NCBI GenBank assembly: GCA_019637395.1
Contig: JAHBVR010000021.1
Span: 1-64,000 of the forward strand
Direction of reading: 5' to 3'
Source of the DNA: Vulcanimicrobiota bacterium
GTDB taxonomy: Bacteria; Vulcanimicrobiota; Xenobia; Xenobiales; JADMJV01
Length of the DNA stretch: 64,000 bases
Part shown: positions 11,216-30,099 of the stretch, piece by piece
Layout: each line of letters begins with the position of its first letter
Position numbering within the stretch: the stretch's first letter is position 1
Position numbers and translations under genes: made by a program
The notes under the pieces: model-generated
The model's input: only the letters and a program-made list of their open reading frames with translations
Told to the model about the DNA's origin: nothing
The model's database searches: none

Positions 11216-11921
11216 GGGCCTGACGGTTTTGTTCCACCGCCAGCAGCCGATCGATGGCTTCCAGAGCGGTGGCGAGCTGCTCCTGCAGAGGCTCGCGATC
11301 GGGATCGGCTTCGGCCACCGTCCGGGCTTCGAGAAAAGTGAACTCGACGTCCTGCAGCGTCTGGACCAGCGTCGCCAGATCGGCCTGGCCGGAGATGACT
11401 CCGGTGTAGGCCTGATGCACGGCGGCCACCTCGGGGCTGACCTGGCCCTGTTCAAATTCCAGAGCGGTGGGTTCAAGGTCGGGGATCAGACGCTCCACCC
11501 GGCACTCCGGGCATTTGCGTTCGGGGCCGGCGGAACCGCAGCCCGGGCACATCGGCGTGCTCCACTCGGCCAGCCTTCGGCTGGTTTCCAGAAACTCGGC
11601 CGCGGCCGCCTGGTAGTCGTCGTAGTGAGGCGGGGACAGATCGGCCAGCAGCTCAATCAGATCCTGGCAGGACTGCAAATTGCGCTCGATGATGCCGTTC
11701 AGACCCGGGTGGAGCTGGTCGCGCAGGGGAGCCGCCGAGGCCTCCCGCTCAGCGAGGGCCCGGCGCAGGCGAGCCCGCATGCTTTTGGTCCTGGCCTGAA
11801 GTTCGTCCGGGGCCATGCCGGAGCGCGCACACTCCAACAGGCCCTCCAGGCGATTCGGGTCGGGACCTTCTTTGGCACCCCCCAGAGAAGTGACCAGGTT
11901 ATCGAGAAAACCAGCGGCCAC
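11151..11921 (-). CDS. Zinc-ribbon protein, probable KAP partner
   Basis: A 256-residue mainly helical, acidic protein with one zinc ribbon in the middle: MCPGCGS and, ten residues on, KCPEC (about residues 123-140). It starts with a GTG that shares a base with the stop of the upstream gene (TAGTG), and its end overlaps the start region of the KAP NTPase. That points to translational coupling of three genes. The helices on both sides (EVAAVHQAYTGVISGQ, QATALEAIDR-like patterns) suggest a scaffold that binds partners. Function unknown; the tight coupling suggests it works with the NTPase. Confidence 0.6.
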   Translation of the reverse strand: MAAGFLDNLVTSLGGAKEGPDPNRLEGLLECARSGMAPDELQARTKSMRARLRRALAEREASAAPLRDQLHPGLNGIIERNLQSCQDLIELLADLSPPHYDDYQAAAAEFLETSRRLAEWSTPMCPGCGSAGPERKCPECRVERLIPDLEPTALEFEQGQVSPEVAAVHQAYTGVISGQADLATLVQTLQDVEFTFLEARTVAEADPDREPLQEQLATALEAIDRLLAVEQNRQARELNAGWAQLFRAAVAIQKLL

Positions 11922-12259
11922 TAGAAGCCGACGGAGCTGAAGCTTCTGAGCATGCCGCCCAGTCCGGGGTTCATGCCGGCGTTGGCCTGGTTCTGGCCGC
12001 CACCGAGCAGGCTGGAGAGAAGTTGGCTGACCTGGGCGCTGTTGCCCGAGACGGCCAGGGCCATGCTGCTGCCGGCGGCCGCGGGGCTGTGGAGGGCGCT
12101 GGCGAAGTTGGGCTGGCCGATTCCGGCGTGCTTGCCGGCCTTACCGGCTTTGCCGTGCTTGCCATGTTTGCCGTGTCTGCAATGCTTGCCATGTTTGCCG
12201 GCGATACCACTTTGAGCTTGAGCTTGATTGTTGCCTGATACAGCGATGGCCATTGACAT
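11921..12259 (-). CDS. Small protein with Gly-Lys-His tandem repeats
   Basis: A 112-residue protein (longer if the GTG at 12274 is used) starting MSMAIAVSG. Residues about 17-45 are a tandem repeat of Gly-Lys-His/Ala triplets such as GKHGKHCRHGKHGKHG, coded by a 9-base repeat. It is strongly basic and His-rich, with one Cys, so metal, RNA or polyanion binding is possible. The rest is Ser/Gly/Asn-rich with a short LLSSLLGGG helix. ATG 12259 has a GGAG nine bases upstream, hence the choice. Not similar to a known family that I recognise. It leads the unit ahead of the zinc-ribbon and KAP genes and follows the Hsp90-like gene by about 130 bases. Confidence 0.5.
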   Translation of the reverse strand: MSMAIAVSGNNQAQAQSGIAGKHGKHCRHGKHGKHGKAGKAGKHAGIGQPNFASALHSPAAAGSSMALAVSGNSAQVSQLLSSLLGGGQNQANAGMNPGLGGMLRSFSSVGF

Positions 12260-12405
12260 TTTCTGGTTCTCCACTTCGTTTCTTCTGGATTCATAGTAAG
12301 CTGCCGGGCACGCCGGTGGAGGGGGGCGCTTGTTGCCAAAACAGAGTTGTTTGTAAACATCTTGTGGCCGACTGTTAATGGTTTTTCAGGATTCTTTCAG
12401 GATCG

Positions 12406-16760: not shown

Positions 16761-17383
16761 GGCTCCACGTCGGTTTTCGCCGAGCCGGCCTGAGCGTGGT
16801 GGACCTGGTAGTGGCTCTGGGACTCCTGCTGATGCTGCTCTCTATTCTGTTTGAGATTTTCTTCCTGGGAGGCAAAGCCTGGCGTAAGACCGATGATCGC
16901 TTCGAACTGCTGCGCAATACCCAGACCGTGGTTTCGCAAATTGCCCGCGAGGCGGAGCGGGCAAGTGTTTTCAGCGTGAGCATCCTGCCGGGCCGGGCGG
17001 TGAGTTTTCTGAGTCCCATGGACGACAACGGCCGGTTTGTCACCGACACGCTCGGCGACGTTCGCTGGGAACGCTACCTGGTGTTCTACCACGATCCGGC
17101 CAGTCAGGAAGTCCGACTGGTCGACGTCCCCCTGCTGCCAGCCTCCTTCGAACGCCGGACCCCGCAGCCGATCGAACGGTTCGTCTCGGCTACCGGAATG
17201 CACCCGCTGGCTTACTACCTGGTAGATGGGCGCGTCTTGGGTCGGCGCATCACCAGGTTCGAGCCCGAACTACCTGCTTTCAGCAAACACTTGAAACTGA
17301 CGATTCGCACCGTCCAACCCAGCACTACCCGAACCCGCGATCTGACGCTGGATATCGCTTCTAACGCTTTCATGAGAAATTAG
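16757..17383 (+). CDS. Minor pilin, PulJ/PilW-like
   Basis: About 208 residues. The start used is TTG at 16757, which overlaps the stop of the previous gene (TTGA); a GTG at 16697 would add 20 residues. The leader GFRRAGLSVVDLVVALGLLL has the prepilin Gly and a hydrophobic helix, but Asp replaces the Glu at position 5 of the mature protein, which is rare. The following QIAREAERASVFSV and SFLSPMDDNGRFV fit GspJ/PilW-type minor pilins. It should be the third subunit of the tip complex. The last bases overlap the convergent XylR-like gene by four. Replacement of Glu5 by Asp may affect pilus assembly. Confidence 0.65.
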   Translation: MRLHVGFRRAGLSVVDLVVALGLLLMLLSILFEIFFLGGKAWRKTDDRFELLRNTQTVVSQIAREAERASVFSVSILPGRAVSFLSPMDDNGRFVTDTLGDVRWERYLVFYHDPASQEVRLVDVPLLPASFERRTPQPIERFVSATGMHPLAYYLVDGRVLGRRITRFEPELPAFSKHLKLTIRTVQPSTTRTRDLTLDIASNAFMRN

Positions 17384-18516
17384 TGATGCGGATGTTGGGA
17401 AAGCATGGTGCGATAGGAACCTGGAGTCAGGCCGGTATACTGGCGGAAGAGTACGCATAGATGCTCGGCGGTGCCCAGGCCGGACATTTTGGCGATGCGA
17501 TCCAGGTTCAGGTCGGTTTCGCGCAACAAATCCCCCGCCCGGCGCAGGCGAATCCGGCGCAACTGTTCGGCTGGCCCGTGGCCCAGAGTGTTACGGAAGC
17601 GTTGCTCGAGCAGGCGGCGCGAGACCGAAAGGTGCTCGGCCAGAGCGGGCACGCGCAGGGACTCCCCCGAATGCTCGTTGAGCCACTCCAGGGCGGCGCA
17701 AATTAAGGGGTCGGCCCAAGCGAGAGAGTCGGTGGAACGCCGGGCTGCTATGGAGGCGATAGGCAGGCGAACCTGGCGAGGTCCGTCCCCGTTGAGCATG
17801 ACGTTCAGGCAGTCGGCGGCCTGGAAGCCGATTTCTCGGGCCGGCACGATCACGCTGGACAAAGGCGGATCAGTGATGACCGTGACCATTTCGTAGTCAC
17901 CCACGCCGAGCACGGCCATTTGCTGAGGAACGGGCCGCTCGAGGCGGCGGCAGGCGTGCAGGACCCGCCGGGCGGTTACATCATCGGCGGCCAGAATTCC
18001 GCAGGGGACGGGTAAGCTGGCGAGCCAGCCGGTCAGCTCCTCGAGATGGCGTGAATTTTGCCCGCTCCAACGACGGAGAGTTTTATGACGCTCGATTTTT
18101 TGCGCAAATTCGGCGGCGTTTTGCAGGAAGCCGGCGGCAATCTGTTGGGAAGCCGCCCAGCGTTTCAAACCCAGGTAGGCCAGGTTGGTAAAGCCGCGGT
18201 CCTTCAGATGTTCGGCGGCCACGCGGCCGACCTGGGCGTAGTCGACGGTGACTCGCGAGCAGCCGCTTTGTTCGAGCGCGCCGCTCAAGTCCACGATGGG
18301 ACGCTGGCTGGCGCGCACCAGCTTGACCAGCTCCGGTTCCTCGTGGTCGACCAGAATGCCGTCGACCTGGTTCAGATCCTCCCAACCCACGTCACCCCAG
18401 GATTCAGCCAGCAACATCCAGTTGTGGCGGGCTGGATGGGAGTGGACGCCTTCTAAGATTTTTCTGCCAAAAGAATTGGATAAATCCACTAGAAAAGCTA
18501 CGCGTTTGAGAGGCAT
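17380..18516 (-). CDS. XylR-type regulator with LacI-like and AraC DNA-binding domains
   Basis: A 378-residue transcription factor. Residues 1-270 form a periplasmic-binding-protein-like sugar sensor (VAFLVDLSNSFGRKILEGV, and GILAADDVTARRVLHAC). The C-terminal 100 residues hold the two AraC helix-turn-helix motifs (SLRVPALAEHLSVSRRLLEQ and LDRIAKMSGLGTAEHLCVL). This is the plan of xylose-type regulators XylR. The ATG at 18516 shares its A with the stop of the preceding gene (TGATG). It is the last gene of a sugar operon, so it probably senses a sugar made or used by that pathway and controls it. Ligand unknown. Confidence in class is high; in ligand, low. Confidence 0.85.
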   Translation of the reverse strand: MPLKRVAFLVDLSNSFGRKILEGVHSHPARHNWMLLAESWGDVGWEDLNQVDGILVDHEEPELVKLVRASQRPIVDLSGALEQSGCSRVTVDYAQVGRVAAEHLKDRGFTNLAYLGLKRWAASQQIAAGFLQNAAEFAQKIERHKTLRRWSGQNSRHLEELTGWLASLPVPCGILAADDVTARRVLHACRRLERPVPQQMAVLGVGDYEMVTVITDPPLSSVIVPAREIGFQAADCLNVMLNGDGPRQVRLPIASIAARRSTDSLAWADPLICAALEWLNEHSGESLRVPALAEHLSVSRRLLEQRFRNTLGHGPAEQLRRIRLRRAGDLLRETDLNLDRIAKMSGLGTAEHLCVLFRQYTGLTPGSYRTMLSQHPHH

Positions 18517-20570
18517 CAAGCCAGCTCCTCGTAGTCCTGAGCCATGCCCAGTTCCTGGCAGGCCCGGATGTAGCTGGCCGCCGACCAGGCCTGGTAGCGC
18601 TTGCCCATGGGTTTGCCGGTGCGGGCGTGGGCCCACTCATTGAATTCCCAGTTGCTCTGTGTGCCTTGCTGGTTCAACTGAGCCAGCCGGTAGAGTTCAC
18701 GGCAGGCCAACTGGTGCAGTCCCAGGCGGTGCAGGTAGCGCACCCAAAAACCACCGACCATGGGCCAGATGCCGCCGTTGTGATAGTGGCCAGGCAGATT
18801 GAGCAGATTGGTGGCGTAGTAGGGTTTCCAGTCGGGATCGCCGGCGTTGACGGCCGGGTAGAGGCAGGCCACCGGGTAGGGATCGTTGACCCCCACGCCC
18901 CAGAGAAAGTGAAAGGTACGTCGGGCTTTGTCCAGGTCGACCACATGAAAGAGGTAGGCCAGCACGTTACCGAGTACGTCGCAGCGCCAGCTGAAGCCAA
19001 AGGGCGTAATCTCGGCGAGCAGGTAGCTGACGTCGCCCAGGCTGAACTGGATGGCAGCAAAGGGTTGATTGGTGCGCGACGAGTCCGGCCAAAAGCGGTC
19101 CACGATTTGCGCCCGGATGAAATTCGCCTGGTGAAAATAGTCGACGGCGCGATGGGAATCTCCCAGCCACTCGAGCAGGCGCCCGTAACAGAGATTGCAA
19201 CGATACCACAGGACTTCATCATACAGGACGTTGTAGCTGCGTGCGAACAGGTCGGTCCAGTCGCCCGCCTCGGGGATTTCCAGCAGGCCGTCGTTGTTAC
19301 TGTCGTGAGCCGAGAGCCAGCGCATGGCATCCTCCACGCGGCGGGAATGGCGCTGGAGAAATTTCATATCGCCGGTGACCCGAACATAGTTGAAAAAACC
19401 GATGATAAACCACAGTCCGCTATCTACCGAGCAAATGCCCCCGACTCCCGAATAGTCGGGTTCGCCCGAGTTAATGCGCACGTTGCTGGGTACCTGGCCG
19501 ACCGGCGAGATGTGCTGCAGCAATGTTTCCAGCGTTGTCTTTTGAGCCTGGCGAATGTCTTCATCTTCGAGCAGAGCCGTGCCCGTAATTGTCATGCAAC
19601 TGTCGCGGGCCCAGACGCTGCGATAGTTCTCATCTGTGCCCAGCACTTCGTTATCGCTCAGGGAGCAGGCCGAGAAGCCCAAAGGTGTGATATTGCGGCG
19701 CAGGGCGGCGATGGCTTCGTCGTAGCCTTTTGCGATCAAGTGCCTTTCTGATTTTTTCAATCCCGAGGGATTTTCTACTTCCAGCAGGCGTTGCAAGGCG
19801 GTGGCGCGGTTGAGGCCAGCCAACCCGGCCCGGTGCTTGGGCAATTGAGGCAGCAGGCCGTAATGGTCCAGTCCTTCCACGACGCCGTCGGCCAGGCTGG
19901 AAGGCGAGACAAAAACTTCTCGCTCTACCACTGCTTCCAACAGTTCGGGATGGGCGTTGTCGACAACAATTCCACGTATTCCGGCAATCTGGAACATCGA
20001 GCTGTCGTTGCCCGAATCGCCGGCTACCAGACATTCCTCCGGGACAATTCTCAGGCGTTTTAAGAGCCATTGCAAGGCTGCCCCCTTACTGGCGGCGGCC
20101 GGCAGGATATCCAGGTCGCGCAGGCTGGAGTAAACGATTTGCACTTCCAACCCCTGGTCGGCGAAGACTTCGCGCAAGCGGCTCAGTGTCTGCTTGGAGG
20201 CCTTGGGAAGGTACCAACTGGATTTAAATTGGTGCTGGTATTCGTGGGGCTGAGGTTTCATGCCGGGAAAGTCCCGAGCCAATGCCTCCACCTCGCCCAG
20301 CCGCCAGCCTTGTTCAAGTAAATCAGAAAAATCGTCCAGGCACCGGCCGTGCTGGAAATCGTAGAGCTGGGTACCTACGCCGGCAATCAAGAAGTCGGCC
20401 TGGGGCAGTGGCTCTTGCTGGAGCAGGTTGAGAATGTCGGACAGCAGGCGGCCCGAGCTGTAGACCAGCAGGGGGGGAGAGCTGAGAGATTTCCAGGCGC
20501 GTCGGAATCTTTCGGTGCCTTCCGGATTTCCAATCAGGGTACCGTCCAGGTCGGAGCAAAACAGCTTCAT
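18516..20570 (-). CDS. HAD sugar-phosphatase fused to an amylo-1,6-glucosidase-like glycosidase
   Basis: A 684-residue fusion. Residues 1-250 are a HAD-IIB phosphatase of the sucrose-6-phosphate-phosphatase type: the nucleophile motif CSDLDGTLIG with Asp7 and Asp9, and GDSGNDSSMF near 186. The C-terminal 400 residues are an alpha/alpha-barrel glycosidase related to glycogen-debranching (amylo-alpha-1,6-glucosidase) or neutral-invertase-like enzymes, with VWARDSCMTI, SVDSGLWF and PEAGDWTDLF as acidic-site candidates. Coupled to the sugar-phosphate synthase just upstream (five bases), it would dephosphorylate the disaccharide phosphate and also hydrolyse a glucoside. The fusion in one chain is unusual: synthesis and breakdown enzymes are joined. 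Exact sugar unknown; compare mannosylfructose and sucrose pathways. Confidence 0.8.
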   Translation of the reverse strand: MKLFCSDLDGTLIGNPEGTERFRRAWKSLSSPPLLVYSSGRLLSDILNLLQQEPLPQADFLIAGVGTQLYDFQHGRCLDDFSDLLEQGWRLGEVEALARDFPGMKPQPHEYQHQFKSSWYLPKASKQTLSRLREVFADQGLEVQIVYSSLRDLDILPAAASKGAALQWLLKRLRIVPEECLVAGDSGNDSSMFQIAGIRGIVVDNAHPELLEAVVEREVFVSPSSLADGVVEGLDHYGLLPQLPKHRAGLAGLNRATALQRLLEVENPSGLKKSERHLIAKGYDEAIAALRRNITPLGFSACSLSDNEVLGTDENYRSVWARDSCMTITGTALLEDEDIRQAQKTTLETLLQHISPVGQVPSNVRINSGEPDYSGVGGICSVDSGLWFIIGFFNYVRVTGDMKFLQRHSRRVEDAMRWLSAHDSNNDGLLEIPEAGDWTDLFARSYNVLYDEVLWYRCNLCYGRLLEWLGDSHRAVDYFHQANFIRAQIVDRFWPDSSRTNQPFAAIQFSLGDVSYLLAEITPFGFSWRCDVLGNVLAYLFHVVDLDKARRTFHFLWGVGVNDPYPVACLYPAVNAGDPDWKPYYATNLLNLPGHYHNGGIWPMVGGFWVRYLHRLGLHQLACRELYRLAQLNQQGTQSNWEFNEWAHARTGKPMGKRYQAWSAASYIRACQELGMAQDYEELA

Positions 20571-20575
20571 GGTTT

Positions 20576-21910
20576 CTAGCCTTCGTCCCGCCAGGGTTCA
20601 TCCCAGTCATCGCCCAGGTCCAGGTGAGAAGGCTGAGGCTGTTCCACCAGTCGGACCAACATCTGGGTGATGCCGGTCCAGGTGAACAGGCTGCGGGCCC
20701 GATAGGCACCCATGCGCGAAAGTCTGCGGGCCAAGAGGTTGTGGCGCAACACTTTGGCCATGGTGATGCCGAGGTCTTCGCGGTCGAAGGGATCGGCGAA
20801 GAGAGCGTGACGGCCGTAGGTGAGAACACGGAATAAGCCGCCGTGAGTGGTCACCACCGTGGGGGTACCGCAGGCCATGGCCTCAATGGCGGTCATTCCG
20901 AAAGGCTCGTAGCGGCTCGAGAGTACAAACAGATCGGCGGCTCGGTAGTGATCGGCCATTTCTTCTTCCTCGACGAAGCCGGTAAATTTGACGCGGTCCT
21001 GCAGACCGAGCTGGCGGACCTGCTCCCAGAGCTCGGCCATGATGGTTGCTTCGCCAGGATTCATATTTTCGCCGCCGACGGCCAGGCGTAGCCGAGCATC
21101 GGGAAAGCGCTCGGCCACCAGGGCGAAAGCCTCGATAAGCAGGTCGTAACCTTTATTGCGGGCCAGCCGGCCGATGGCCATGACCACCCGGCCGCTGAAA
21201 CCGAGGCGCCGGCGAATGGCCTGACGGGAAGCTTCTCCCACCGGAAAGTAGCGATTGTCATCGTAGCCGGGCGGAACTAGAGCGAGCCGGCTGCTATCCA
21301 CGCCGTAGCCAGAACGCAGAAGATCGGTCTGGACCGGAGTGGTGGCCAGGACCTTATGGGCTCGGGCGTACATCTCGGTTTCGCAGCGGATGCGCTCGCC
21401 GAAGTTGTATTGCTTCTCCAGTTGTTGGTCGGAGTCGGGGTAATCCTGAGTCATCTGCTTCAGTTTCCACAGTCCCAGCGAGTGTGGAGTGTGCAGGTGG
21501 GGGGCGGCCGTGCCCTGAGCCAGCTTTTCCCCGGCTAAACCGCCATCCCAGTAATGGGAATTGACGAACAGGTACTTGAGGTTCTGGCGTTCCACCAGGC
21601 GGAGCGCTCCTTCCGCCCATTCGTTCAGGTGGCGATAAAGGTACTCTTTGGGAAGGAAATCGTCGCCGCCGCAGGGTACGCGCAAGATACGCGCATGGGG
21701 ACAGAGGGCTTCGCTTTCGGGTTGGTCTTCGAACTGGCGGGTCCAGACGTCCACGGCGTAGCCCATCTGAGCCATTTTACGGGCCGTTTCCAGGACGTAA
21801 ACGACCTGTCCTCCAGTGTCTTGAGCTCCGAGGGGTGGGCGCGCGGCCACATAGCCGTGCGTGGAGACCAGGGCCACGCGCGGCCGGTCATCGGTTTCGC
21901 AATTTGACAT
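20576..21910 (-). CDS. GT4 sugar-phosphate synthase (sucrose/mannosylfructose-phosphate synthase-like)
   Basis: A 444-residue retaining glycosyltransferase, GT-B fold. The N-terminus has LGAQDTGGQVVYVLETARKM, the acceptor-binding signature of sucrose-phosphate, sucrose and mannosylfructose-phosphate synthases. The C-terminal donor site has RYEPFGMTAIEAMACGTP (the E-x7-E motif, near residue 335). The context, a HAD phosphatase fused to a glycosidase just downstream, fits a two-step route: synthase then phosphatase. Sucrose or mannosylfructose as osmolyte, or glucosylglycerate, are plausible products. The donor and acceptor cannot be settled from this reading. It starts the leftward operon that ends with the XylR-type regulator. 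Confidence 0.85.
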   Translation of the reverse strand: MSNCETDDRPRVALVSTHGYVAARPPLGAQDTGGQVVYVLETARKMAQMGYAVDVWTRQFEDQPESEALCPHARILRVPCGGDDFLPKEYLYRHLNEWAEGALRLVERQNLKYLFVNSHYWDGGLAGEKLAQGTAAPHLHTPHSLGLWKLKQMTQDYPDSDQQLEKQYNFGERIRCETEMYARAHKVLATTPVQTDLLRSGYGVDSSRLALVPPGYDDNRYFPVGEASRQAIRRRLGFSGRVVMAIGRLARNKGYDLLIEAFALVAERFPDARLRLAVGGENMNPGEATIMAELWEQVRQLGLQDRVKFTGFVEEEEMADHYRAADLFVLSSRYEPFGMTAIEAMACGTPTVVTTHGGLFRVLTYGRHALFADPFDREDLGITMAKVLRHNLLARRLSRMGAYRARSLFTWTGITQMLVRLVEQPQPSHLDLGDDWDEPWRDEG

Positions 21911-22028
21911 ACCTGTTTATTATTCGCGTCAGGCTACCCCCTTTTGTTGAATCCCGTAAGCGTATAGCTTGATTGCGCAGATAAGCTCGCGCAAAATAGT
22001 AAAAGGATTGCGTGATTCGGCAAAAGAG

Positions 22029-22046
22029 TACCCGCTTGCTCGGGTA
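22029..22046 (+). promoter_or_regulatory. Hairpin in the leader of the aminopropyltransferase gene
   Basis: TACCCG and CGGGTA form a perfect 6-base stem with a 6-base loop, 19 bases before the ATG at 22066. There is no poly-U run, so it is not a standard terminator. It could affect translation or be chance. Confidence 0.3.
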
Positions 22047-22065
22047 ACTTGTATTCATCGGAGTT

Positions 22066-22941
22066 ATGAAAATCGAGAGTCCGCGCTGGTTGCGCGAAAA
22101 AGATTCTGGCCCTATTCGAATCGAACATCTGGCAGACCGGATCCTTTGGCAGGGACGTAGCCCCTATCAGGAGATCCTGCTGGCGGAGAACGCTCGCTTG
22201 GGTAAATATCTACTGCTGGACGGAGACATGCAGTCGTGCACTGGCGATGCTCCGTTTTATCATGAGCTGCTGGTGCATCCGGGCTTGTTGGCGCACCCCC
22301 AGCCTCGCCGTGTGCTGGTGTTGGGTGGTGGCGAGGGCGCTACCTTAAAAGAGGTGCTGCGTCACCGATGTGTCCAGGAAGTCGTCATGGTGGAGCGCGA
22401 CCCTACGGTCGTCAAAGTGTGCCGAGATTTTGCGCCGGAATATCACGGCGGGGCTTTTCAAGATTCGCGTTGCCGCTTGATCGTGGGGGATGCCTATCAC
22501 TATTTGCAGGAAGCTCAGGGTTATTTCGACGTGATTGTGGGGGACCTGACGGCCGAGCCGCATGGACTCGACTTTAAGGAACTCTATCGCTTGATTTCCA
22601 GTCGGTTGGGTCTGGATGGACTCTACTGCGCCCAATTGGGCAGCGGTAACCTCCACGAAGAAGACCGCTTTCTGAGACACTTCCGGATGCTCCGGAAGCA
22701 CTGGTCGGTTCTTTGCCCGATGGTCCAGTTTGTGCCCAGCTATCATAGCCTGTGGTGCTTTTTGACGGCCAGTCACGGCCCTGATCCCGCCCGTCTGACC
22801 GGCCCGGAGGTCGATCAGCGACTGATCGAACGGACCATTACGAGTCTTCATGCCTATGATGGGGAAGCGCACAGGCGCGCCTGCCACCTGCCCAAGCACC
22901 TGCGCCGTGCGCTGGAGCATGTGCGCGAGGGAACAGGCTAA
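22066..22941 (+). CDS. speE: Polyamine aminopropyltransferase (SpeE family, thermospermine-synthase-like)
   Basis: A 291-residue enzyme that transfers an aminopropyl group from decarboxylated S-adenosylmethionine to a polyamine. Seen: the S-adenosyl-binding motif LVLGGGEGATLKEVLRH near residue 84, DGDMQSCTGDAPFYHE, and FDVIVGDLTAEP. The last is like the ...IIGDLADP... motif of ACL5-type thermospermine synthases rather than the VDSSDP-type seen in spermidine synthases. This supports a longer-chain product but does not prove it. The ATG at 22066 follows CGGAG. It is divergent from the sugar operon and overlaps the start of the ClC gene, so the two are probably co-transcribed. Confidence 0.85.
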   Translation: MKIESPRWLREKDSGPIRIEHLADRILWQGRSPYQEILLAENARLGKYLLLDGDMQSCTGDAPFYHELLVHPGLLAHPQPRRVLVLGGGEGATLKEVLRHRCVQEVVMVERDPTVVKVCRDFAPEYHGGAFQDSRCRLIVGDAYHYLQEAQGYFDVIVGDLTAEPHGLDFKELYRLISSRLGLDGLYCAQLGSGNLHEEDRFLRHFRMLRKHWSVLCPMVQFVPSYHSLWCFLTASHGPDPARLTGPEVDQRLIERTITSLHAYDGEAHRRACHLPKHLRRALEHVREGTG

Positions 22942-24508
22942 AAAACCTTTGTCCAATCATCGCCACTCCCGCCAGGTTCTGCATCGCCTCTCCCGGCGCT
23001 ACACTTTTCTGCTTTCGGCTGTGGTGGGGGCGATGGCCGGTGGTCTGGCCGTTCTGTACAAGCTCCTGGTCACCGGTCTGGCTCAGGCGGAAATCTTTAC
23101 TTCCGGCCACGTGCCGCGTGATTGGTGGTGGCTGCCGCTGTGCCTGGCCCCGTTGGGGGGAGTGTTGGGCTGGTCGGCCTGCCGTATCTCCCGGCGCTTT
23201 TGCCCGGAAGCCGGGGGCAGTGGAATTCCCCACGTGAAGGCGGTGCTTTTGGGTTTGCGCCGGATTCGCCCGGCCGCTTTACTGGGTACCAAGCTGGTCG
23301 GCGGCTTACTGGCATTGGGAGCGGGAATGTCCCTGGGACGCGAGGGTCCGACCGTGCACATGGGAGCCGCCTGTGCCGCCTGGTTGGGAGGCCGTCTGGC
23401 CGTGCCGAACCGCACTCACAAGAACCTGGTGGCGGCCGGAGCCGGAGCCGGCCTGGCCGCCGCTTTCAACGCGCCGCTGGCCGGCTTTCTCTTCATCATG
23501 GAGGAATTACGCCGGGAGATGTCGCGGGTTACTTACGGCAGCGCTCTGGTAAGCAGCGTGATCGCGGTGGCCGTGGCCCGTTTGCTGGTGGGTCAGGCCA
23601 ACAGTTTTGGGCTGAGCGAAGTGGCTCCCATTCCCCTGCACCAGCTGCCGGTGGTCATCCTGGTCGGGCTGCTGGCCTCGGGACTGGGCCTGGTGTTCAA
23701 CCGGAGTTTGTTGAGGCTGCTCGACTTTCGCGACGTCCGGGGTTGGCCGCTGGAGAACTGGGGTCTGGGCGTCGGGGTCATGGGGATGTTGCTGTTGGGT
23801 TGGTGCACACCTTTGACGGGTGGCGGGCACCTGCTGACTCACTCGGCGCTGAGTGCGGAACTACACTATTCGCCGTGGGCTCTGGCGCTATTGTTCGTGA
23901 TCAAACTTCTATTCACGGTGTTGAGTTACGCCACCGGAGTGCCCGGAGGCCTGTTTGCACCCCTCTTGACGCTGGGGGCGCTGGTCGGGAGTTTTTGCGG
24001 CCAACTTTTGTTTCTATGGATGCCGGCCTATACGCCGCGGCCCGAAATTTTGGCTACTATCGGGATGGCCGGCCTGCTCACCAGTTCGGTGCGCGCTCCC
24101 TTGACCGGGGTGGTGCTGATTGTGGAGATGACCGGCCAATACAATTTGCTCTACGCTCTGTTGCTGGCTGCCTGGTTCGCCTATCTGGTGGCCGAATATT
24201 TTGGCGATGAGCCGATCTACGAGGCGTTGTTGCGCCGCGACCTGCACCACGAGCGACGTCTCTGGAAAGATGAGGCCCGCGCGGTAGAGGTGCTGGTGGA
24301 GCCGAATTCGGAATTTGAGCATATCCCTTTGAGCCGCTTTCCGCGCCACAAGGACATGCTGGTAGCCCTGCTGGAGCGCAACGGGCACGTGCATATTCCG
24401 CACGGAACGACCATGGTGGAGGCGGGCGACATGTTGACGCTGTTGGTTGGACCGGAAATGACGGAACACGATTTGAACCAGGTTTTGGAAATGGCCCGCG
24501 ACCATTGA
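22919..24508 (+). CDS. ClC-family chloride transporter with RCK_C-like C-terminal domain
   Basis: About 529 residues. The ClC core shows GSGIPHVKAVL (selectivity filter region), GREGPTVHMGAA (contains the gating Glu, so a proton-coupled exchanger rather than a pure channel is possible), and GVPGGLFAPLL. About ten membrane helices run to residue 430. The C-terminus (SEFEHIPLSRFPRH to GDMLTLLVG) is a TrkA-C/RCK_C-like regulatory domain that may bind a nucleotide. Start: ATG at 22919 overlaps speE by 23 bases; TTG at 22949 is an alternative and would skip the overlap. The position of Ser in the filter and His in GIPH (instead of Glu) differ slightly from the E. coli protein. Confidence 0.85.
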   Translation: MCAREQAKKPLSNHRHSRQVLHRLSRRYTFLLSAVVGAMAGGLAVLYKLLVTGLAQAEIFTSGHVPRDWWWLPLCLAPLGGVLGWSACRISRRFCPEAGGSGIPHVKAVLLGLRRIRPAALLGTKLVGGLLALGAGMSLGREGPTVHMGAACAAWLGGRLAVPNRTHKNLVAAGAGAGLAAAFNAPLAGFLFIMEELRREMSRVTYGSALVSSVIAVAVARLLVGQANSFGLSEVAPIPLHQLPVVILVGLLASGLGLVFNRSLLRLLDFRDVRGWPLENWGLGVGVMGMLLLGWCTPLTGGGHLLTHSALSAELHYSPWALALLFVIKLLFTVLSYATGVPGGLFAPLLTLGALVGSFCGQLLFLWMPAYTPRPEILATIGMAGLLTSSVRAPLTGVVLIVEMTGQYNLLYALLLAAWFAYLVAEYFGDEPIYEALLRRDLHHERRLWKDEARAVEVLVEPNSEFEHIPLSRFPRHKDMLVALLERNGHVHIPHGTTMVEAGDMLTLLVGPEMTEHDLNQVLEMARDH

Positions 24509-27236: not shown

Positions 27237-28487
27237 ATGCTCCGGCCCGAAGCTCGTTTCTTGGGAAAACGGACGTGGGCCAATTTTGTCGCATTTCTGC
27301 TGGCCGGCTGCAGCCAGGCCGGCGATCCGAGCAGGCTGTGGGTGTGGGCGCACGAGGGGAGAGAAGTAGAGCGGCGGATTCTGTCACGGCAAGTAGCGCG
27401 GTTTCAGCAGCAGCACCCCGGCATGGGATTGAAGTTGACCTTTTTGCCGGAGGGTAGTTACAATTCGCAGGTGCAGGCGGCCGCGCTGGCCGGACAGTTG
27501 CCGGACATTCTGGAATTTGACGGGCCGCTGCTCTATCGCTACGTATGGCAAGGATGTTTGCGGCCACTAGGGCGGCTGTTGAATGACTCCGCGCGCACCA
27601 ATTTGTTGCCCAGTCTGGAGCGTCAGGGAACCTTTCGGGGCCGGCTTTACAGCGTGGGTGTGTTTGACTCCGGGTTAGCGCTTTATGGGCGCAAGAGCCT
27701 GCTCGAGTCGGTAGGGGCGCGGCTGCCGTCCCGGCCCGAGGAAGCCTGGACCATTGCGCAGTTCGAGCGCATTCTGAAAGATCTGGCTCGGGCGGACGAG
27801 GACGGGCAGGTTCTGGACCTGAAGTTGAACTACCAGGGGGAGTGGCTCACTTACGCCTTCAGTCCGGTGCTGGTGTCGGCCGGTGCCGATTTGAGACACC
27901 TGGATCGTCCTGAAGCGGCCCGAGCATTGACTCTGCTTCAAGAGTGGTCGGAGCACGGATTGATAGACCCCAACCTGGACGATGCGGCATTTGTGGAGGG
28001 CCGGGTGGCCCTGTCCTGGGTTGGGCACTGGGAGTATCCGCGCTATGCAGAGCGCTGGGGTGGGGACCTCTGCCTGATTCCTTTGCCTAATTTCGGCATC
28101 GGCAGTCGCAGTGGGCAGGGATCCTGGAACTGGGCGATTACCTCACGATGTGGCTCACCCCGGCGTGCGGCCGAATTCTTGAACTTTCTCCTGGAGGATG
28201 CTCAGGTTCTGGAAATGACGGCGGGAAACGGTGCCGTGCCCGGCACCCTGAGCGCCATCGCCAAATCACCTCTCTATCAGAAAGGTGGACCGTTGCGGTT
28301 GTTTTCGCAGCAGTTGCTGGAAGGGTGGTGTGCCCCCCGGCCGGCCACGCCGGCTTATCCTTTTGTAACCTCGGTCTTTCAACAGGCCGTACGGGACATC
28401 GTGCATGGGGCTCCGGTGAAGAAAGTGTTGCAGAGCGCCGCCCAGGACATTCGCCAGGATGAGCTGGACAACGAGGATTACCGGTGA
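27237..28487 (+). CDS. Sugar ABC transporter substrate-binding lipoprotein
   Basis: A 416-residue extracytoplasmic solute-binding protein of family 1. The N-terminus has FVAFLLAGCSQAG, a lipobox with the modified Cys. Then LPEGSYNSQVQAAALAGQLPDILEFDGPL is the typical binding-protein start, with GRLYSVGVFDSGLALYG and LSWVGHWEYPRYAERWG in the body. These bind oligosaccharides or glycerol-phosphate-like sugars (UgpB/MalE type). ATG 27237 follows GGGGAGGA, very close to the start. Its stop overlaps the GTG of the first permease (GTGA). The ABC ATPase is not in this cluster, so a shared MsmK/UgpC-like ATPase elsewhere is expected. Confidence 0.88.
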   Translation: MLRPEARFLGKRTWANFVAFLLAGCSQAGDPSRLWVWAHEGREVERRILSRQVARFQQQHPGMGLKLTFLPEGSYNSQVQAAALAGQLPDILEFDGPLLYRYVWQGCLRPLGRLLNDSARTNLLPSLERQGTFRGRLYSVGVFDSGLALYGRKSLLESVGARLPSRPEEAWTIAQFERILKDLARADEDGQVLDLKLNYQGEWLTYAFSPVLVSAGADLRHLDRPEAARALTLLQEWSEHGLIDPNLDDAAFVEGRVALSWVGHWEYPRYAERWGGDLCLIPLPNFGIGSRSGQGSWNWAITSRCGSPRRAAEFLNFLLEDAQVLEMTAGNGAVPGTLSAIAKSPLYQKGGPLRLFSQQLLEGWCAPRPATPAYPFVTSVFQQAVRDIVHGAPVKKVLQSAAQDIRQDELDNEDYR

Positions 28488-29353
28488 AGCCGGGCTGGGC
28501 TATGGTTTCCCCAGCGGTGCTGGGCTTGCTGCTCTTTGTATTGGCACCTTTCGCCCTTTCTTTCTTGATCTCGTTCACCGACTTGAGCCTGGGGTCGCCC
28601 CATCCGATGCATTGGGTAGGCACACTACAGTATGAGAGACTTTTTCACGATCCGGCCCTGGCTCGTGCCCTGGCTAATAACCTGCGCTTTGCCCTGGTGG
28701 TTGTGCCCCTGCAGACGGCTCTGGCCCTGGCGCTGGCAGTATTGCTACACCGGCCCGGCTGGAGACTGGCAGGTCTCTACCGCGCTATCTTTTTTGCGCC
28801 GGTGGTTTTTCCCATGTCCCTGGTCGCCGTCATTTGGCGTTACCTCTATGCTCCGGGCCTGCAGGGCCCGGCCAATCGATTGCTGAGTTGGTTGAGCCTG
28901 GGACATTGGCAGGCGCGTGACTTTCTGCACGACCCTGAGTGGGCTCTAGGGGCGCTCATGGCATTGTCGGTCTGGCAAGGGGTGGGCCTGCAGATGGTCA
29001 TCCTTCTTGGGGGCTTGCAACAGATTCCGTCGGACCTTTATGAAGCGGCCGCCCTGGACGGGGCGGGACCGCTGCAGCGCTTTCGCCGGGTTACCCTACC
29101 CATGCTGCGCAACACTCTGATCTTTACGGCACTTATGACCAGTATTCTGGCCTTCAGGGTATTTGACCAGGTGCAAATTTTGACTCATGGAGGTCCGGCG
29201 GGAGCCACCTCCACGTTGATGTTCGAGCTGGTCCGCTCGGCTTTCGAGCGGCTGCAGATGGGCCGGGCCTGCGCCTTGACGGTATTGTTCGTGTTGATTG
29301 TGCTGCTGCTGACCGGTCTGCAGCGTCTGGCGCTACGCCAGAGAGCGCTGTGA
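28484..29353 (+). CDS. Sugar ABC transporter permease 1 (UgpA/MalF-like)
   Basis: A 289-residue membrane protein with six helices (for example PAVLGLLLFVLAPFALSFLI at the start). The inner-membrane loop EAAALDGAGPLQRFRRVTLP is the EAA motif that contacts the ATPase. GTG start at 28484 overlaps the stop of the binding-protein gene, and its own stop overlaps the next permease (GTGA). All three genes thus form one translation-coupled unit. Substrate not known. Confidence 0.9.
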   Translation: MKPGWAMVSPAVLGLLLFVLAPFALSFLISFTDLSLGSPHPMHWVGTLQYERLFHDPALARALANNLRFALVVVPLQTALALALAVLLHRPGWRLAGLYRAIFFAPVVFPMSLVAVIWRYLYAPGLQGPANRLLSWLSLGHWQARDFLHDPEWALGALMALSVWQGVGLQMVILLGGLQQIPSDLYEAAALDGAGPLQRFRRVTLPMLRNTLIFTALMTSILAFRVFDQVQILTHGGPAGATSTLMFELVRSAFERLQMGRACALTVLFVLIVLLLTGLQRLALRQRAL

Positions 29354-30099
29354 GGTCGGTTGTGCCGGCTTGGCTGGCGCTGCTCTATGTGTGGCCGATC
29401 GGTATGTTGGTGGCCGGCAGCCTGCAGGCCGGCGGTCTGGGCAATTACCTGGCGGTAGGGCAGCGAGTGGATTTCTTGCGCTTGTTGTTCAACTCGCTGT
29501 GGATTTCGGGCTGGACGGTAGTCTTGGGGGCTTTGGTCAATAGTCTGGCCGGCTATGCGTTGGCTCGCCTGCAGTTTCCCGGCCGGGCTGTTTTGCTGGG
29601 CCTGGTGCTGATATGCATGGTCATTCCTTTCGAGGCGGTGGCGGCTCCGCTCTTTTATAGTGTGAGCCGGCTGGGCTTGCGCGATACGCTGGGAGTGCAG
29701 ATTCTACCCTTCGTGGCCAACGGAGTGTCCATTTATCTTTTTTATACCTTCTATTTAGAATTTCCTCGGGAGCTGGAAGAAGCGGCCTGTCTCGAGGGAG
29801 CGGGTCCCTGGCAGATCTATGGGCGCTTGGTGTTACCCAATTCCGGTCCGGTGCTGGCCACCCACTCAGTGATAACCCTGCTGTCCAGTTGGGGAGCTTA
29901 TCTGTGGCCGCTGTTGGTCACGGCCGGGCCGCAAGCACGACCGCTGCCACTGGCCCTGGCAAATTTTATGACCACGCCGCCATTGCACTGGGGTCAGATC
30001 TTCGCCTTCGGGGTGCTGATGGTGGTTCCGGTTTTGCTGGGGTTTGGCTTTCTGCAGCGCTATTTCCAGCCGGGCTCCCTGACGAGCGGTATCAAGTAA
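29350..30099 (+). CDS. Sugar ABC transporter permease 2 (UgpE/MalG-like)
   Basis: A 249-residue membrane protein, the second permease subunit. The EAA motif is ELEEAACLEGAGPWQIYGRLVLP. Six hydrophobic segments are seen, e.g. VLLGLVLICMVIPFEAVAAP. It starts with the GTG at 29350, overlapping the stop of permease 1. Slightly short compared with the usual 270-280 residues at the N-terminus, so the first helix is reduced. No ATPase follows; the next gene is leftward. Confidence 0.9.
   Translation: MRSVVPAWLALLYVWPIGMLVAGSLQAGGLGNYLAVGQRVDFLRLLFNSLWISGWTVVLGALVNSLAGYALARLQFPGRAVLLGLVLICMVIPFEAVAAPLFYSVSRLGLRDTLGVQILPFVANGVSIYLFYTFYLEFPRELEEAACLEGAGPWQIYGRLVLPNSGPVLATHSVITLLSSWGAYLWPLLVTAGPQARPLPLALANFMTTPPLHWGQIFAFGVLMVVPVLLGFGFLQRYFQPGSLTSGIK

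Follow-up and report, generated by a model that had tools for sequence, protein, structure and literature searches.

A sucrose-phosphatase-like domain fused to a GH100-like barrel beside a GT4 synthase: a probable bacterial cassette for making and breaking sucrose or a close analogue

What does an operon do in which the gene for a sugar-phosphate-synthase-like glycosyltransferase is followed by a single chain that carries both a phosphatase and a glycosidase? Such an operon was found in a 64,000-nucleotide stretch of DNA from a Vulcanimicrobiota bacterium (the window hereafter), where three minus-strand genes for a GT4 glycosyltransferase (GT), the phosphatase-glycosidase fusion and a regulator lie head to tail in this order (Table 1). 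The GT4 gene ends 5 bases before the fusion starts, and the TGA stop codon of the fusion overlaps the probable ATG of the regulator in a TGATG junction; judged by this position, the regulator appears to be translationally coupled to the fusion. A XylR regulator had been assigned to the same operon in the preliminary description, and this assignment holds. The regulator is a local associate of the system, with a homologue nearby in just one other locus (L012). The divergent intergenic region contains a terminator-like stem and an inverted repeat, with counts in the promoter and terminator scan that lie near the shuffle level and barely above it; no Rfam match was found in the window.

Table 1. 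Positions of the operon's genes, protein domains and upstream region in the window
Feature	Position	Strand	Remarks
GT4 gene, sucrose-phosphate-synthase-like	20576-21910	-	444 aa; DTGGQ; first gene of the operon
Fused phosphatase-glycosidase, whole chain	18516-20570	-	684 aa; single open frame; DLDGTL and GDSGND
HAD domain of the fusion (residues 1-240)	19851-20570	-	PF05116; sucrose-6-phosphate-phosphatase-like
GH100-like (alpha/alpha) barrel of the fusion (residues 274-684)	18519-19751	-	PF12899; putative catalytic D440 and E645
XylR-like regulator	17380-18516	-	periplasmic-binding-like sensor and AraC-type HTH; Peripla_BP_3 2e-24, HTH_18 7.8e-19
Divergent intergenic region, likely operon promoter	21911-22065		short palindromes at 22029-22046 and 21966-21987

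The phosphatase-glycosidase fusion is genuine and ancient. Pfam confirms the earlier reading of a HAD sugar-phosphatase and a glycosidase barrel in one chain, with an S6PP domain, a short linker and then a glycosidase stretch from about residue 275 to about 680, and the AlphaFold model is a confident two-domain structure (mean pLDDT 83.5, pTM 0.88) in which the linker and some barrel loops score low. A frameshift or assembly artefact joining two genes, which the preliminary description had named as a possible objection, is ruled out because three relatives (G002, G003 and G019; identities to the window's chain of 86%, 78% and 56%) carry both domains in one uninterrupted frame, as do 75 of 79 further loci. 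These loci (L015-L093), the best matches outside the window's own genus, come from a scan of 84,980 species, one genome each, with the barrel as query, in which the best 80 of 275 relatives were analysed and L014, lying on the same contig as G002, was left out of the count; L076 is the same locus as G019. Of the four loci that lack the phosphatase in this frame, three (L015, L025, L081) run into the end of a contig and one (L044) has a broken frame. In the same set, drawn from the best 80 of 275 relatives, a GT gene adjoins the fusion in 71 of the 79 loci; by raw count it comes first in 53 and the fusion in 15, and one single change on the tree accounts for both orders. High-scoring GT and fusion were also found in exactly the same four of 58 genomes, that of the window included. 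Pairwise distances of the HAD, GH and GT modules correlate (r = 0.77-0.83; 0 of 500 permutations as high), a correlation to which organism kinship contributes, and the GH half is the best-conserved module (mean identity 0.67). The hosts belong to about nine phyla (Verrucomicrobiota, Bacteroidota, Rhodothermota, Chloroflexota, Planctomycetota, Acidobacteriota, Myxococcota, SAR324 and, as a metagenome-assembled genome, Armatimonadetes); many of the loci are from such assembled genomes, and the isolates include Algibacter lectus, Algibacter miyuki, Polaribacter, Hyunsoonleella, Aestuariivivens, Pelagicoccus and Opitutaceae EW11. A second, stand-alone sucrose-phosphatase-like gene adjoins the fusion at L034:4020-4916 and L079:8419-9192, so that some genomes carry a free as well as a fused phosphatase.

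The phosphatase half matches PF05116 (S6PP) over residues 2-239 with 3.4e-63 and 214 bits, against a gathering score of 20.3, and its closest solved structure is Synechocystis sucrose-phosphatase (1s2o; 4.8e-33 by sequence, 8.7e-17 by Foldseek). It does not reach the NCBIfam equivalog for sucrose-6-phosphate phosphatase, TIGR01485 (165.1 against a cut-off of 183.65 bits). The HAD motifs (DxD, Lys and GDSGND) are intact in the window, with D7, D9, K162, D185 and D189, and are near-invariant across 60 sequences. A few relatives have altered catalytic Asp residues beside an intact barrel, namely L071:6137-8209 (SAR324; FNIDGTL and GYSGND) and L046:6155-8197 (Saprospirales; GNSGND), and their phosphatase halves may be dead.

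The upstream enzyme, described beforehand as of a synthase type from its DTGGQ motif, is sucrose-phosphate-synthase-like by homology: it matches Glycos_transf_1 and GT-B_Sucrose_synth in Pfam, and its best PDB match is the sucrose-phosphate synthase of T. elongatus (TeSPS; 6kih, 8.5e-50). The roles of the TeSPS residues in substrate binding and activation are taken from the literature (PMC7264703). HMMER numbers 6kih three higher than the paper does, an offset confirmed on each of the eleven residues that the paper names. The equivalents of His158, Glu331, Arg178, Arg249, Gln51 and Glu339 are invariant in 72 of 72 aligned GT sequences; in the window, the catalytic pair corresponds to H143 (His158) and E335 (Glu331), and the phosphate-binding residues to R173 (Arg178) and R248 (Arg249). 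Arg105, Arg253 and Ala48 of TeSPS are replaced by Lys, Asn and Thr, respectively. The GT does not reach the sucrose-phosphate synthase equivalog TIGR02472 (190.5 against a cut-off of 576 bits), and a GT from an alphaproteobacterium (42.6%) is a nearer relative than TeSPS. Its score for the mycothiol synthase MshA (TIGR03449) is slightly higher, at 210.1 bits, and also below the cut-off (462.5 bits); for this reason, and because neighbouring phosphatase and fructokinase genes are at odds with it, an MshA-like role was rejected.

The hydrolase had been called amylo-glucosidase-like; the glycosidase barrel is confirmed, but that label comes second to GH100 neutral/alkaline invertase, and the closest relatives are GH100 sucrose invertases rather than amylo-alpha-1,6-glucosidases. 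On the C-terminal stretch, Pfam ranks Glyco_hydro_100 (1.9e-15) ahead of GDE_C (4.4e-11) and MGH1-like (1.2e-8), PF12899 scoring 57 bits against a gathering score of 23.6 with its best stretch confined to residues 515-670. A profile of 33 barrels has the Anabaena GH100 invertase InvA (5goo, 1.9e-17) as its top match, with Anabaena InvB and Arabidopsis CINV1 ahead of all else. In Foldseek with the barrel modelled alone (pLDDT 77, a moderate value), ranks 1-28 are all GH100 invertase chains (probability 1.00, TM 0.59-0.71), followed by rhamnosidases, GH94, GH116 and GH63. Glycogen debranching was set aside, GDE_C being weaker than GH100 and the archaeal-type equivalog TIGR01561 giving 23.2 against a cut-off of 364 bits. 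The catalytic residues of InvA, Asp188 and Glu414 (PMC6995568; alignment index equal to the paper's numbers plus one), have counterparts in D440 and E645 that are invariant in 60 of 60 sequences. Identity to GH100 is 17-20%, and the position of InvB Arg430 falls in a 3-residue alignment gap, residue 658 being R in the window and A or C in most relatives. Profile and predicted fold thus point to a GH100-like barrel whose nearest solved relatives are GH100 sucrose invertases.

Further hints come from neighbouring genes. A PfkB kinase family is present in 19 loci. Downstream sequence sufficient for this check exists in 72 loci, and the gene follows the operon in about a quarter of loci; each of the 17 placeable copies comes after the cassette with the same orientation, and most touch or overlap it. 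One member has a fructokinase (2qhp) as its best PDB match (1.8e-41), and in NCBIfam it comes closest to models of other sugar kinases, none of which reaches its cut-off; downstream of the window's own operon there is no PfkB gene. GH32 is a fructofuranosidase family, and on plasmid p1 of Paracoccus sp. TOH (L094:5668-9260) a GH32-type protein (a weak match, 2.2e-5) is followed in a row by S6PP and GT4 proteins with 35% and 43% identity to those of the cassette. This arrangement fits a parallel make-and-break set in which an unrelated GH32-type hydrolase would stand in the barrel's place, in agreement with a fructofuranoside product. Genes for small mechanosensitive-type channels lie beside the cassette in about seven loci, and five loci, the window among them, have CLC channels nearby; these occasional neighbours hint at, and do not prove, an osmotic context and an osmolyte role. 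The CLC gene of the window lies with a spermidine-synthase-like gene at 22066-24508 (+), divergent from the cassette, and homologues of both are near the cassette in G003 (L012). A neighbour cluster of GAF/histidine-kinase genes was dismissed, its position and strand being scattered.

Taken together, the GT4 enzyme and the fusion probably form a make-and-break cassette for sucrose. The GT would couple fructose-6-phosphate with an NDP-sugar, for which UDP-glucose is the likeliest candidate, and the HAD half would strip the phosphate to yield sucrose. When the cell has no more use for the sugar, the GH100-like half of this chain would hydrolyse it at the glucosyl bond, releasing glucose and fructose, and the PfkB kinase, where present, would convert fructose back to fructose-6-phosphate. 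The last synthetic and the first degradative step would then sit in one chain. We infer the order of these steps from family knowledge, and the substrates and the joint activity of both halves from sequence. Several lines of evidence argue for sucrose. First, separate searches with each of the three modules lead to sucrose enzymes as the closest solved relatives. Second, the TeSPS residues for substrate binding and activation are mostly kept in the 72 GT rows, and the counterparts of the InvA catalytic pair are invariant. Third, a fructokinase-like gene follows on the same strand in some loci, and a GH32-type protein replaces the barrel in the Paracoccus relative. Fourth, GT and fusion co-occur and their module distances correlate. 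Fifth, the sps, spp, amylosucrase and fructokinase genes of Synechococcus sp. PCC 7002 form one operon (PMC9971976), which likewise brings together a synthase, a phosphatase, a sucrose-cleaving enzyme and a fructokinase (the last in some loci of the cassette), although its cleaving enzyme is an amylosucrase and that of the cassette is GH100-like and fused behind the phosphatase. Against this reading stand the sub-cut-off score and the alphaproteobacterial affinity of the GT with its changes at R253 and A48, the low identity of the barrel to GH100 together with the want of a clear counterpart to the InvB Arg430 region, the altered HAD Asp in a few relatives (L046, L071), and the futility, unless regulated, of joining a phosphatase to an enzyme that hydrolyses what the phosphatase makes. 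The earlier proposal of a synthase, a phosphatase and a hydrolase together in one operon, here read as acting on a single non-reducing disaccharide, is supported by these data, and its switch between making and breaking is plausible.

A cassette of the same build could serve mannosylfructose instead, with the GT taking GDP-mannose and fructose-6-phosphate and the barrel cutting the mannosyl-fructose bond. In Agrobacterium, mannosylfructose-phosphate synthase and phosphatase (MfpsA/MfppB) are encoded by neighbouring GT4 and HAD genes and use these two substrates; the adjoining GT4 and HAD genes are shared with the cassette, and we know of no MfpsA/MfppB with a fused hydrolase. The GT has closer kin in a HAD-GT pair of an alphaproteobacterium than in cyanobacterial SPS and falls outside the SPS equivalog, the fructokinase and GH32 neighbours are compatible with any fructofuranoside, and mannosylglycerate hydrolase is among the fold relatives of the barrel. 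Moreover, in a different Verrucomicrobiota genus a GT4 gene, possibly of another family, has been annotated as mfpsA by its authors (PMC7356697). However, by both profile and fold the barrel clearly favours GH100 over the GH63 mannosylglycerate hydrolase, and InvA, which belongs to GH100, is reported to be strictly specific for the alpha-1,2 linkage in sucrose (PMC6995568). We therefore consider mannosylfructose rather unlikely and, by judgement, favour sucrose over it.

It is less probable still that the barrel works on some other sugar (glucosylglycerate, a trisaccharide or glycogen limit chains) or acts by transfer, with synthase and phosphatase supplying its precursor. The weak GDE_C and MGH1-like matches, the glucosylglycerate hydrolase and GH94 phosphorylases lower in the Foldseek list and a GH100 identity of at most 20% are in its favour, but the top 28 fold matches are all invertases and the fructokinase-like neighbour suggests release of free fructose. 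Of the substrates named in the preliminary description, sucrose and mannosylfructose are retained. Glucosylglycerate and glycogen become less likely, given that each of the three modules has a sucrose enzyme as its nearest solved relative and that the cassette is often followed by a fructokinase-like gene. Least probable, with a slight chance at best, is that one half is non-catalytic in vivo, the barrel being for example a sucrose sensor that gates the phosphatase, or the phosphatase a scaffold like the non-functional phosphatase domain of Synechocystis SPS (PMC4390843): L071 has lost the catalytic Asp of the HAD half and L046 has it altered, but the window protein and almost all relatives keep both sets of catalytic residues, and no module is better conserved than the GH half.

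Returning to the sucrose cassette, its fusion differs from known architectures. In reviews, sucrose-phosphate synthases occur alone or joined to a phosphatase domain (PMC4390843; PMC9971976). In cyanobacteria and plants, the bidomainal SPS (GTD-PHD) likewise places a sucrose phosphatase domain within a multi-domain chain, but joins it to the synthase, whereas the fusion joins it to the hydrolase. The invertases InvA, InvB and AtCINV1 share with the barrel the fold, the catalytic Asp/Glu pair and a YHNGG-WP motif, and differ in the low identity, in having no phosphatase domain and in the Arg430 region of InvB. Deinococcus plasmid proteins annotated as glycoside hydrolase 100 (L008:5986-7278 and L009:5917-7239) have a barrel about 36% identical, with DW-D and FNEW motifs, but stand alone in sugar-uptake or catabolic gene sets that contain no synthase, and are possibly unfused cousins. 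In the open-licence literature searched, no description of a phosphatase-invertase fusion was found, and the architecture is apparently undescribed.

Sucrose synthesis has been studied chiefly in plants and cyanobacteria. If the sucrose reading is correct, many soil and marine bacteria of about nine mostly heterotrophic phyla, cultured Flavobacteriaceae and Opitutaceae included, synthesize sucrose or a near analogue and recycle it, and its synthesis and breakdown are tied in one chain, an apparently undescribed control of a protective sugar. The joining of opposing steps suggests control of the net flow between making and breaking. More tentatively, the fusion might be a single-chain valve, its halves reciprocally controlled or channelling, so that sucrose is either stored or sucrose-6-phosphate is burnt straight to glucose and fructose; it would then represent a widespread undescribed layout in non-photosynthetic bacteria and a new subfamily next to GH100. 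In any case, the fusion offers a concrete protein for asking how cells avoid a futile cycle between joined opposing enzymes.

Two further features of the window may be recorded. A small protein at 11921-12274 (-) contains HGKHGKHGKAGKAGKH repeats and has no Pfam match. About 5 kb from the cassette, at 27237-30099 (+), there is a sugar-type ABC transporter set, made up of a solute-binding lipoprotein and two ORFs that look permease-like by eye.
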